DNA from: Candidatus Contendibacter sp. | Lineage (GTDB): Bacteria; Pseudomonadota; Gammaproteobacteria; Competibacterales; Competibacteraceae | Assembly (NCBI GenBank): GCA_029624675.1 | Contig: JARSSP010000043.1 | Location: forward strand, 1-64,000 | DNA: 64,000 nt | Direction: 5' to 3' | Shown: positions 60,328 to 64,000 of the stretch, one piece after another | Position numbering within the stretch: the stretch's first letter is position 1 | Layout of the letters: every line of letters begins with the position of its first letter | The notes under the pieces: model-generated | Told to the model about the DNA's origin: nothing | Databases searched by the model: none | Seen by the model: only the letters and a program-made list of their open reading frames with translations | Translations under genes and position numbers: made by a program

Positions 60328-60428
60328 AAATTATCGTAGGGCGGGATTAGGGCGGCAGCCCGTAATCCACCTTGTGGGAAGCCTGCCGGAATCGGCGGGT
60401 TATGCTTCGCTAATTCGCTCTACCGCCC
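60328..60428. repeat. Palindromic dispersed repeat R2
   Basis: Second copy, same orientation as R1 and R3. Its right edge (TACCGCCC at 60421-60428) supplies the TAG stop of the BrnA-like antitoxin gene on the minus strand (60420-60422). Confidence 0.8.
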
Positions 60429-60662
60429 TGCCGTGCTTGGGTCTTTTGCTAAGCCAGTTGTTTTTTTGGCGATCCTGATCAATGACAGTAATGCTTCGTT
60501 TACCGCCTTTTCAGATGGAAACGCCTTTGCTACTTCAGGTCTGAGAAGAACCAGGTTATGGCCTTCGTTATATGCTTCATAATATTTACCACGAACCCCG
60601 ACACCAAGATCCTCTCTCTTATATTCCGATCTCATTTCATCTTGATTTTTAGCCTTTTTCAT
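60420..60662 (-). CDS. BrnA-like antitoxin
   Basis: 80 residues from ATG 60662, MKKAKNQDEMRSEYKREDLG. The segment YEAYNEGHNLVLLRPEVAKA then FPSEKAVNEALLSLI matches the small antitoxins paired with BrnT toxins. It overlaps the toxin end by 14 bases. The last dozen residues (TGLAKDPSTAGR) and the stop come from the edge of repeat R2, so the natural C-terminus has probably been altered by the repeat. Confidence 0.8.
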   Translation of the reverse strand: MKKAKNQDEMRSEYKREDLGVGVRGKYYEAYNEGHNLVLLRPEVAKAFPSEKAVNEALLSLIRIAKKTTGLAKDPSTAGR

Positions 60663-60921
60663 AAATTTCTCTCTCGTGTTTTTGCATGATTCGAACGCTA
60701 ATGATTCGCATTGATCTTTCTCGTTCGGTATGGGAGACAATGACCAATTTTCCAGTTCTTGTAGCGCCAAATGTCAATAACCTGCGCTCGCCAATGGAAT
60801 GATCCGGATCATCAAAGGTAAGTGCCAATGGATCACCGAAGACCGACGCGGCCTCGCCAAAGGAAACGCCATGCTTTTTCAAGTTGCTCGCGGCTTTTCT
60901 TTTGTCCCATTCGAATTCCAC
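60649..60921 (-). CDS. brnT: BrnT-like ribonuclease toxin
   Basis: 90 residues. MEFEWDKRKAASNLKKHGVS, FGEAASVFGDPLALTFDDPD, RRLLTFGATRTGKLVIVSHT and RIISVRIMQKHEREIYEKG are the blocks of the BrnT family, RelE-fold RNases that slow translation until neutralised. Toxin first, antitoxin second is the usual order. The pair sits next to the cassette array and between two palindromic repeats. Confidence 0.93.
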   Translation of the reverse strand: MEFEWDKRKAASNLKKHGVSFGEAASVFGDPLALTFDDPDHSIGERRLLTFGATRTGKLVIVSHTERERSMRIISVRIMQKHEREIYEKG

Positions 60922-60995: not shown

Positions 60996-61092
60996 AAATT
61001 ATCGTAGGGCGGATTAGGGCGGAAGCCCGTAATCTCCCTTGTGGGAGACCTACCGGAATCGGCGGGTTACGCTGCGCTAATCCGCCCTACCG
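60996..61092. repeat. Palindromic dispersed repeat R3
   Basis: Third and most complete copy, with inverted ends GTAGGGCGGATTAG and CTAATCCGCCCTAC. Its right edge provides the TAG stop (61087-61089) of the cassette gene next to it. R2 and R3 flank the BrnTA pair as direct repeats. Confidence 0.85.
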
Positions 61093-61569
61093 CGCTTGGC
61101 GGCACCGCGGCGACAGGGTCACTTGGAGCGAGTGCCAAGTGACGGGCTTGGCCGACAACCCCGGCCGCCCGGTGGTGATTGAGTTGTCCACCCACACCCG
61201 CCCGTTATCCCAGCGGAGGTGATCGAACTCGGGCATGTCCACCACGTTCGGCGGGCCGAGGTGCCCACGCAGGGCGGCGGACGAACACCGGAACGACCGC
61301 CGCTTTCGCAACGCCTCTGGGGCGTTGTTGTGCACCTGCACCTCAGTAAACCTGCCGTCCTGGTCGGTGACGAAGTTGAACCCCCACACGGCCGTGACCC
61401 CGAGCAGGGTGAATCGCAGCATCGGCCAACCGCCGACGGAGATGGTGAACGCCCCCTCAGGGATCAGGGGATACAGATCCGGCTCACGGATGAGCCAGGG
61501 TACGAACGCGCCTAACTCCGGCACTGGGATGCCGTCGTGGAGCGCAGCCAGTGCTTCGATGCCTACCAC
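61087..61569 (-). CDS. Integron cassette gene 3, hypothetical
   Basis: About 160 residues. The start is probably GTG 61569 (GAGGGG upstream), because the TTG at 61599 lies inside the attC-like site. It contains IREPDLYPLIPEGAFTISVG, LLGVTAVWGFNFVTDQDGRF and HLGPPNVVDMPEFDHLRWDN. No family recognised. The stop codon and last residues (CRQAR) derive from the repeat R3 edge. Third gene after the GTTAGGT core on the minus strand. Confidence 0.55.
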   Translation of the reverse strand: MVGIEALAALHDGIPVPELGAFVPWLIREPDLYPLIPEGAFTISVGGWPMLRFTLLGVTAVWGFNFVTDQDGRFTEVQVHNNAPEALRKRRSFRCSSAALRGHLGPPNVVDMPEFDHLRWDNGRVWVDNSITTGRPGLSAKPVTWHSLQVTLSPRCRQAR

Positions 61570-61587
61570 CGCCGTAACCCCTCTGCC

Positions 61588-61651
61588 GCCGAACGCCAAG
61601 CCTCAGCCGCCGCGCGTTGTTTGCGCGGTCGGCTGGAGGCGATTGTTAGGC
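61588..61651 (-). other. attC-like recombination site between cassettes 2 and 3
   Basis: On the minus strand it begins GCCTAAC (R'') and ends GTTCGGC (R'; consensus GTTRRRY, one mismatch). The interior folds: CAGCCGCCGCGC pairs imperfectly with GCGCGGTCGGCTG around GTTGTTT on the plus strand. Size 64 bases. It starts three bases after the stop of cassette gene 2, as attC sites do. Confidence 0.65.
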
Positions 61652-61654
61652 AAT

Positions 61655-62056
61655 TTACAACCATTGACGTGTTTTGTTTGAAATGCGTGGTGAATTTGGT
61701 ATGCGTGCGCGTTTCTCTGGGTCGTCATATGGGGTTTGGCACACGTCACAATACCAGCCGCGATCAGTTACTTTTAGCGGAGAGAGAATGTCAGATGCTT
61801 TACATTTGGCGCAGTAGCGTAAACCATCCATCTGGTTGATCCAGGTACCTGTTGACTCATCAAACTTTATGGTGCTCTTATGAAAGCTTTCTACCAGGTT
61901 TTCAAGTTTTTTTACCTTTTGTTGCAATTGATCATTGTCAAGTGTAAGCGCATTTACCTTGAGTTCAAGGCCAGAAGACTTACATTTCTCAATAGAAAGC
62001 TCTCGCTCAAGTGCGCGGGCATTGAACAGGCGCTCCAGAATATTCAAAGGGTTCAT
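61655..62056 (-). CDS. Integron cassette gene 2, coiled coil plus zinc ribbon
   Basis: 133 residues, MNPLNILERLFNARALEREL. Residues 20-60 are a coiled coil (SSGLELKVNALTLDNDQLQQ then KVKKLENLVESF). Residues 80-110 hold a zinc ribbon CAKCKASDILSPLKVTDRGWY then CDVC. I have the impression of similar hypothetical proteins in mobile cassettes, but no function is known. It begins 17 bases after the R' core of the attC site at 62074-62136, and AT content is higher than in the chromosome around it. Confidence 0.7.
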   Translation of the reverse strand: MNPLNILERLFNARALERELSIEKCKSSGLELKVNALTLDNDQLQQKVKKLENLVESFHKSTIKFDESTGTWINQMDGLRYCAKCKASDILSPLKVTDRGWYCDVCQTPYDDPEKRARIPNSPRISNKTRQWL

Positions 62057-62073
62057 GTATATTATTTGGTTGA

Positions 62074-62136
62074 GCCTAACGCAAAGCTAACCGGCGCGAG
62101 CGATAGCGAGCGTCACGGTTGAGCGTTGGGTTAGGT
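62074..62136 (-). other. attC recombination site between cassettes 1 and 2
   Basis: Minus strand: R'' ACCTAAC, R' GTTAGGC, both full matches (RYYYAAC, GTTRRRY), 63 bases apart end to end. The arms CCTAACCCAACGCTCAACCG and CGGTTAGCTTTGCGTTAGG fold on each other with a few unpaired bases, and the loop is CTCGCTATCGCTCG. Gene 1 stops 31 bases before it; gene 2 starts 17 bases after. Confidence 0.8.
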
Positions 62137-62167
62137 GCCGGCAGCCATTTGGTTCTGATATTTTTCA

Positions 62168-62590
62168 CTATTCAGCACCATCGCCAATTGAGGGCGTATC
62201 GTCGAAAACTTCAAATTCATCTTTTCGCTTCACCCAAGAACGCACCTTCTTAACGGTGCGATTGTTGTGCTCAACCCACAATATTTCAGCACCATCTGTC
62301 AATTCTTCGTGGATTGCGAGGAGGCTTGTGAGCCCTTCGAAAACCCAATGACCTTTTCGGTTATTTCGTGTGCTGTCTTCAAATTGCGATGTTTGTTGTG
62401 ATGCAAGAGCGATTGCCTTTTCGTATGCGGCTTCACGATCCGGTGCTTGCAAAATGATGGTATTTTCCCAGGCCAGACATCGACTATTTGGAGCTGGATT
62501 AGGTTCGTCGTCCCAGGCAGCTCGCTCAATGTACGAAGCGATCCACCAACCGTATGGTGAGTGATTTCTGTAGGGAATTCCATCCTTCAT
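62168..62590 (-). CDS. Integron cassette gene 1, hypothetical
   Basis: 140 residues from ATG 62590, MKDGIPYRNHSPYGWWIASY. Features: WENTIILQAPDREAAYEKAI, GHWVFEGLTSLLAIHEELTD and VEHNNRTVKKVRSWVKRKDE. This looks like a small DUF4288-type protein (helix-strand, single domain), common in bacterial cassettes. The ATG lies seven bases after the GTTAGGT core, the usual placement of the first cassette. Confidence 0.72.
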   Translation of the reverse strand: MKDGIPYRNHSPYGWWIASYIERAAWDDEPNPAPNSRCLAWENTIILQAPDREAAYEKAIALASQQTSQFEDSTRNNRKGHWVFEGLTSLLAIHEELTDGAEILWVEHNNRTVKKVRSWVKRKDEFEVFDDTPSIGDGAE

Positions 62591-62597
62591 AAGAGGC

Positions 62598-62604
62598 ACC
62601 TAAC
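62598..62604 (-). other. attI-like core, first cassette insertion point
   Basis: GTTAGGT followed by GCC on the minus strand fits the GTTRRRY core. No second folded arm is seen upstream, which favours attI over attC. It separates the first cassette from the decayed intI promoter region, and the homology with copy A at 31.1 kb starts right here. Confidence 0.55.
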
Positions 62605-62662
62605 AAATGATTATGTAGTTTCGACCTATCTGCCACAATCCGCCGTGGTTGACAGGAACCAT

Positions 62663-62694
62663 TTGATTGTACTGGATTTTTCCAGCAGTATAAC
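62663..62694 (+). promoter_or_regulatory. SOS-type promoter upstream of decayed integrase copy B
   Basis: -35 TTGTAC (62667-62672), 16-base spacer, -10 TATAAC (62689-62694). Overlapping is TACTG (62670-62674) and CAGTA (62686-62690) separated by 11 bases, one more than a full LexA box, so this copy has probably lost tight LexA binding. Confidence 0.6.
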
Positions 62695-62726
62695 ATTCAT
62701 CGCCAGCCATCCGACTCCGGAAACCC

Positions 62727-62973
62727 CGCCATGCCCACCGTCCCCAGGAACTCGCCCGTCGCTACGAGGCGCGGTTGGCGCAGCGGAACATCATGGCCAG
62801 GCAACGTCCGCATCCTCACCCGTGGCCACGCCTCCACTTGGACTGCTGTCACAAGTATAGCTCTCGCCAACGGATCGGCGGAGTATGGCCATTGTTCGGG
62901 GACAATTGCCAAAACCGCTGCATTTAGCGGTTCCATGATATTTCGCGGTCCCCGTCCTCGACCAAAGCTCAAC
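62727..62973 (+). pseudogene. Decayed integron-integrase N-terminus, copy B
   Basis: A broken plus-strand frame reads QELARRYEARLAQRNIMARQ, then HPHPWPRLHLDCCHKYSSRQ, then PLFGDNCQNRC and a stop near 62923. This is the N-terminal domain of integron integrases (RYEALL, then HPHYRKWLR-Y-LDFCHKY, then F-DKL-K). The catalytic C-terminal domain is absent. Position and direction, divergent from the cassettes, match a class of chromosomal intI. Confidence 0.65.
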
Positions 62974-63092: not shown

Positions 63093-64000
63093 ATGAAGGC
63101 CATGATTCCCATTGACAACCCCGAGCGCCTGCGCCTGGAACGACAGCATGAAGGTAAAGAAGACTGGCGACTGTGGGGACCGTATCTCGCGGAACGGGCC
63201 TGGGGCACGGTCCGCGAGGATTACAGCGCCCACGGCGAAGCCTGGGAACACCTCGATCACGACCAGTCTCGTTCCCGAGTCTACCGCTGGAACGAGGACG
63301 GGTTAGGCGGCATCTGCGACGAGCAGCAGCGATTGTGTTTCGCCCTCGCTCTGTGGAACGGCCGCGATCCGATTTTGAAAGAGCGGGCGTTCGGCTTGAC
63401 CGGCAACCAGGGTAACCACGGCGAGGACGTGAAGGAGTATTACTTTTATCTCGACGCCACGCCCAGCCACAGCTATCTGCGCTACCTCTATAAGTATCCC
63501 CAGGCTGAATATCCCTACGGCGGGCTGGTGGAGGAAAACCGTCGCCGGGGTCGCCTGGACCCGCCGTTCAACCTGCTGGATGCCGGCGTTTTCAACGACA
63601 ATCGCTATTGGGACGTGGAGGTGAATTACGCCAAGGCCGGCCCGGAGGAAATTCACATTCGCGTCACCGTCGCCAACCGTGGACCCGAGGCCGCGACCCT
63701 GCACCTGCTGCCGCAACTCTGGTTCCGCAACACCTGGGCCTGGGGCGACGAGGAGAAAGAACGGGCGCTGGCCGAACTGCGGGGCGATCCGGTCGAGCCA
63801 GACAGCCAAACCGTCAAACCGACCTTGCGCGCCATCGCTGTACCAGACGGAGCCGCTTGGGCGGTGCGCGCCGAGCATCCGACGTTAGGCGCATATCACC
63901 TGTACGGCCGGCAGTCCGCCGAACCGCTGTTCACCGAGAACGAGCACAACGTTCAGCGGCTGTGGGGACTGGCGAACGCAACGCCGTATGTTAAAGACAG
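63093..64000 (+). CDS. MGH1-like glycoside hydrolase, N-terminal part (3' end outside window)
   Basis: 302 residues are in the window, from ATG 63093 with GGAG nine bases upstream. [60 protein letters not shown] and [20 protein letters not shown] match the N-terminal region of the large MGH1/GH63-related proteins found in many bacteria. These probably act on glucosyl-glycerate or other short glucosides. Catalytic residues lie in the part outside the window. Confidence 0.85.

Follow-up and report, generated by a model that had tools for sequence, protein, structure and literature searches.

An orphan attI site with a putative cassette promoter beside a truncated integrase gene in a Competibacteraceae genome, probably served by an integrase encoded elsewhere

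Cassette arrays without an integrase are common, which raises a question: are they dead relics, or are they still live and used in trans? The locus described here poses this question for a small array next to a broken integrase gene in a wastewater bacterium; the window, that is the whole stretch of DNA analyzed, comprises bases 1-64000 of contig C43 of its 4.74-Mb genome. Orthologous orphan attI sites which share the loss of the integrase and carry different cassettes make the question of relic or live site directly testable. A reading from the sequence alone had left the choice between a frozen array and dependence on an integrase elsewhere; our comparison favors the integrase elsewhere, as the truncation is common to several species while the cassettes differ with a breakpoint exactly at GTT. 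The features of the locus are as follows.

60420-60921, minus strand: BrnT/BrnA toxin-antitoxin pair (BrnT PF04365, E 4e-27)
61087-61599, minus strand: third ORF, start GTG 61569 or TTG 61599
61588-61651, minus strand: attC of cassette 2 (model R1, 59 bits, E 1e-11 in 64 kb; R' box GTTCGGC)
61592-62077, minus strand: cassette 2, ORF 62056-61655 (133 aa) plus attC, bounded by GTT cores
62074-62136, minus strand: attC of cassette 1 (model R1, 38.8 bits, E 6e-7 in 64 kb)
62078-62601, minus strand: cassette 1, ORF 62590-62168 (DUF4288 protein, Pfam PF14119, E 3e-10) plus attC, bounded by GTT cores
62602-62630, minus strand: core of the orphan attI, with the insertion point for cassettes behind GTT (62604-62602); four loci with intI have a homologous motif as their attI
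62610-62638, minus strand: putative cassette promoter Pc (TTGTGG, 17 nt, CATAAT), read from sequence
62731-62921, plus strand: integrase pseudogene, N-terminal part of a long-type IntI, frameshifted and cut off near 62909-62921
63093-63998, plus strand: neighbor gene, a 961-aa open frame continuing beyond the window, which flanks the truncated integrase in orthologous loci

Three minus-strand ORFs lie in tandem (62590-62168, 62056-61655 and 61599-61087). A scan for RYYYAAC...GTT hairpins recovered 62074-62136, and 61588-61651 as well once the R' box was relaxed. The covariance model R1 was built, with R and L arms paired, from 16 aligned attC sites, none of them from this locus: they came from the C64 integron of this genome and from arrays in relatives. 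Both sites scored with this model (39 and 59 bits), at exactly the two coordinate pairs that had been proposed for folding, and all further matches in the 64 kb were far weaker. In both sites the extrahelical bases were found on the arm expected for minus-strand cassettes and the attC strand was the minus strand, as the gene order requires, giving two foldable attC sites in a single orientation. Two of the three cassettes that had been proposed are therefore bounded by attC; behind the third ORF the R1 scan found none. This ORF also matched no known family and had no homologue in the loci of relatives compared; it may be either a decayed last cassette or a flanking gene. The 133-aa protein of cassette 2 matched no family above the curated cut-off, the cassette 1 protein gave no plasmid matches, and Rfam gave no match anywhere in the window. 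At the DNA level the BrnT/BrnA pair shares approximately 92% identity with a cassette in the orthologous array of G022, where it bears an attC; in the window it lies without attC at 60420-60921, with copies of a GTAGGGCGGATTAGGGCGG-type repeat on either side.

A complete integron has intI beside attI; in that place we found only a frameshifted N-terminal remnant (62731-62921). Translated, 62742-62921 (plus strand) matched the N-terminal portion of the long IntI proteins found in relatives, with E values of 1e-12 to 1e-15 (67% identity over 43 aa). A single-base deletion just behind the start codon (62731) breaks the frame, and the homology ends near 62909. The suspected decayed intI code was thus borne out and, together with the attC scores, so was the description of the locus as a small integron-derived array. 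These long IntI proteins, of 500-560 aa, are from the same bacterial family, the Competibacteraceae, and carry an additional N-terminal region ahead of the part covered by TIGR02249. TIGR02249, PF00589 and the Pfam/NCBIfam profiles did not recognize the remnant because it precedes the domain which those models cover. Since it represents the extra N-terminal part, their silence is not counter-evidence, and the integron-integrase HMM search originally suggested for this region would have dismissed it wrongly. tblastn with the integrases of contigs C64 and C14 returned only noise in the window, and the remnant had no plasmid matches. With two attC sites and no integrase nearby the locus falls within the CALIN class (at least two attC, no integrase nearby).

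The first cassette adjoins the core GTT/AGGTGCC, with GTT at 62604-62602 on the minus strand, as the sequence-only reading had placed it. The loci compared read GATARNYVGAAACNNNATAATCAYTNGTT immediately before the first cassette base, and the 29-nt motif occupies the attI position in four loci which have a long integrase gene; judged by this homology, attI lies next to the first cassette, and the array begins exactly at its GTT, behind a promoter-like site. The ATAAT of the putative Pc -10 hexamer, which is 17 nt from a -35-like hexamer, lies inside the conserved motif, and cassettes here may be transcribed from Pc. A LexA-like box and SOS control had also been proposed in the leader and found no support: the palindrome at 62672-62685 is CTGG-N6-CCAG rather than the CTG-N10-CAG spacing of a LexA box, and no CTG-N10-CAG-type box was seen upstream of recA in the same genome, so that there was no calibration for such a box. 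The attI/Pc block was only slightly more conserved than the pseudogene (0.85 vs 0.78), a difference too small for a claim of purifying selection on attI.

With up to two mismatches the attI motif occurred 53 times in 18 of the 39 family genomes; the reversed motif, used as a control in the same 39 genomes, gave 0 occurrences, and outside the family 3 matches were found in 365 genomes of the class. There were 6 copies in this genome, 8 in G036, 6 in G007 and 5 in G004, mostly without an integrase in cis. Being multi-copy, having a -10-like hexamer and being present in loci without integrase, the motif could be taken for a dispersed promoter or repeat which has nothing to do with an integrase and adjoins cassettes by chance. 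We regard this as very improbable, since the motif holds the attI position in the four long-IntI loci, many copies carry long-integrase remnants on the same side, and attC sites are found on the other side only. Of the 39 testable platforms, 25 had an attC in the same orientation no more than 2 kb away on the cassette side and 2 had one in the opposite orientation, a few of those attC sites having been in the covariance model; on the leader side of the motif no attC was found at any of 43 platforms.

Orthologs of the neighbor gene at 63093 were found in many family members, including on contigs of the named records Candidatus Competibacter phosphatis and Candidatus Contendobacter sp. SB13 (Competibacteraceae). 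Upstream of this gene a truncated integrase with the same breakpoint was present in several other genomes: in the orthologous loci compared, truncated copies read approximately GGRAYAATTGCCAA joined to AACC vs approximately GGAAAAATTGCGGG in intact genes. One ancestral deletion would be the simplest account of this shared truncation. A different event was found in G028:C65 (L076), where integrase aa 1-86 are joined to the C-terminal part by an internal deletion, and G008:C62 carries another, separate truncation; the three differing truncations indicate that the integrase was lost at least three times. The deleted G028:C65 integrase lies on the leader side of an orphan attI at 1806, with cassettes present.

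Orthologous platforms, defined by the same flank and the same leader, could be assembled into eight sets. In these, identity over the last 60 nt before GTT was 70-95%, whereas the 60 nt directly behind GTT were mostly near the level of shuffled sequence, the exception being ortholog pairs in which both members carry the same ORF-less cassette. At the present locus the bases after attI are AGGTGCC in this genome, AGCTCAA in G022 and ATGCAGG in G036; in G004, G028, G031, G026 and G025 an ORF-less cassette, GTCGCGGACGC or a closely similar variant, follows attI. G022 has two cassettes between attI and the ORF-less cassette, the second being the BrnT/BrnA pair, and its last junction is GTT/GTCGCGG, as expected if the cassettes had entered the junction of attI and ORF-less cassette. 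Because the integrase truncation is common to these orthologs, exchange of cassettes, whether in or out, happened with no integrase in cis. By comparison of the loci, then, cassettes were exchanged at attI when its neighboring intI had already been lost, the behavior of a platform served in trans.

Cassettes were also common to integrase-bearing and orphan arrays. Within the G004 genome a 557-nt cassette stretch is 95.7% identical between the integrase-bearing array on C314 and the orphan array on C308, with its left limit at CGTT in both, and a 680-nt stretch of the C314 array (96%) lies directly behind an orphan attI in G013. A 245-nt cassette (92%) was found behind orphan attI sites at G036:C237 and on contig C36 of this genome, where the leaders differ and the cassette limits are sharp at GTT on both sides. 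The ORF-less element recurs family-wide, as a GTCGCGGACGC hairpin followed by GGCGGAT...ATCCGC, directly behind the GTT core of attI or of an attC-like site (L070:2069-2160; also L101, L102, L250 and L253). It is probably a very common ORF-less cassette, with its own putative attC identified by eye, and is perhaps a terminator or insulator behind Pc. The alternative that the hairpin is a target-specific insertion was rejected, as nearly every intact copy in the loci compared follows an attI or attC-like GTT core.

Two integrase genes of this genome were considered as the source of activity in trans. Contig C64 encodes a complete IntI of 464 aa, which has an array to itself and another attI; this second, complete integron (G000:C64:1-5204, L017) comprises four or more attC sites and has CTAACAGTTGATTAGACAG as an attI-like boundary. 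At the start of contig C14 a long-type IntI is represented by its C-terminal 240 aa, adjoining nadC, the arrangement which a complete long IntI gene has in the close relative G004 (C314); the N-terminal half was not found in the assembly. The long-type IntI is presumably the cognate of the C43 remnant and would be the likeliest agent. No long-type IntI was found in several genomes which have orphan sites (G007, G013, G028, G029), so that some platforms may be frozen or use another integrase. At G000:C48:71623-74941 (L153) there is another array, with four or more attC sites but neither an integrase nor the attI motif. Matches to attC were also seen within the first approximately 100 bases at the starts of contigs C64, C36 and C57; attC repeats seem to interrupt the assembly, and arrays may therefore be longer than seen.

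We consider it likely that the locus is an orphan attI-Pc platform which lost its integrase and whose cassettes were exchanged in trans by an integrase encoded elsewhere. The competing account which deserves most attention, and which we nevertheless hold to be unlikely, is a frozen relic, the array having been built before the integrase was lost and the lineages having kept different subsets of a longer array by deletion. It would agree with the dead integrase in cis, with the third ORF and BrnT/BrnA pair lacking attC and the other repeats in the region, as in decaying arrays, with the deletion of attI itself at two orthologous loci (G007, G029), and with the precedent of Xanthomonas, where activity was lost after integrase truncation (PMC12444791). 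Random deletions, however, would not keep a breakpoint exactly at GTT in eight ortholog sets, G022 differs by two whole cassettes precisely between attI and a shared cassette, and the same cassettes, 92-96% identical, stand at different platforms. Less probable still, in our estimation, is a swap of whole platform segments with different arrays by homologous recombination in the flanks or by transfer. In its favor, G036 is closer at the neighbor gene than at nadC, and divergence of the neighbor gene is only weakly correlated with that of nadC (Mantel r 0.26, p 0.11), so that the truncated locus may have been transferred horizontally between genera; such transfer would not explain the GTT breakpoints, and flank swaps would scatter breakpoints in homologous DNA rather than set them at the last base of GTT.

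Cassette exchange most likely went on after the loss of the integrase by means of an integrase in trans, a conclusion for which the evidence is comparative throughout. In the course of events we propose, a sedentary chromosomal integron would have lost intI by a deletion common across Competibacteraceae, retaining attI and the cassette promoter as an orphan attI-Pc platform. An integrase encoded at another place in the genome, with the long-type IntI (partial on C14, complete in G004) as the likeliest candidate, would then insert and remove cassettes at the GTT core, and inserted cassettes would be transcribed from Pc. Such activity may extend to the present day, and the platform would be one of several in this genome and in relatives. 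That the Competibacteraceae as a whole have a split integron is a broader proposal, to which we give somewhat better than even chances: each genome would have at most one complete long-type integrase and as many as eight attI-promoter platforms scattered through it, with intI repeatedly deleted and the platforms still in use. If so, captured genes could be put under promoters at several chromosomal sites.

In a limited literature search we found no publications on integrons of Competibacter, the four papers in which both words occur doing no more than mention them, and no use of the phrase 'multiple attI sites' in connection with integrons. Generic software cannot recognize attI because it is not conserved between integron types, and our results suggest that there are more attI sites than have been counted and that a single integrase may act at several expression sites within a genome. 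CALINs, clusters of attC sites lacking an integron integrase, have been described and their mobilization in trans is an accepted idea (PMC12444791). The present locus resembles them in having two attC sites and no integrase in cis. Unlike CALINs, which are defined without attI, it retains attI and a promoter-like site, as happens several times per genome, and between species its cassettes change precisely at attI. For a single orphan attI there is a direct precedent in the Shewanella prophage M16-3, which, in the part of the published account drawn on here, holds a complete integron and a CALIN that each begin with a Shewanella-type attI, the cognate integrase of the CALIN's own attI being present in the genome (PMC9892861). 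As presented in that part, it is one case in one prophage, with neither an orthologous series nor evidence of cassette turnover at the orphan site (PMC9892861). The ancestral integron of Xanthomonas is likewise a chromosomal platform with a fixed neighbor gene and an integrase truncated in many strains (PMC12444791). There, loss of the integrase is described as a progressive loss of activity, whereas at the locus described here changes of content at attI continued after the shared truncation and one genome holds several orphan platforms.
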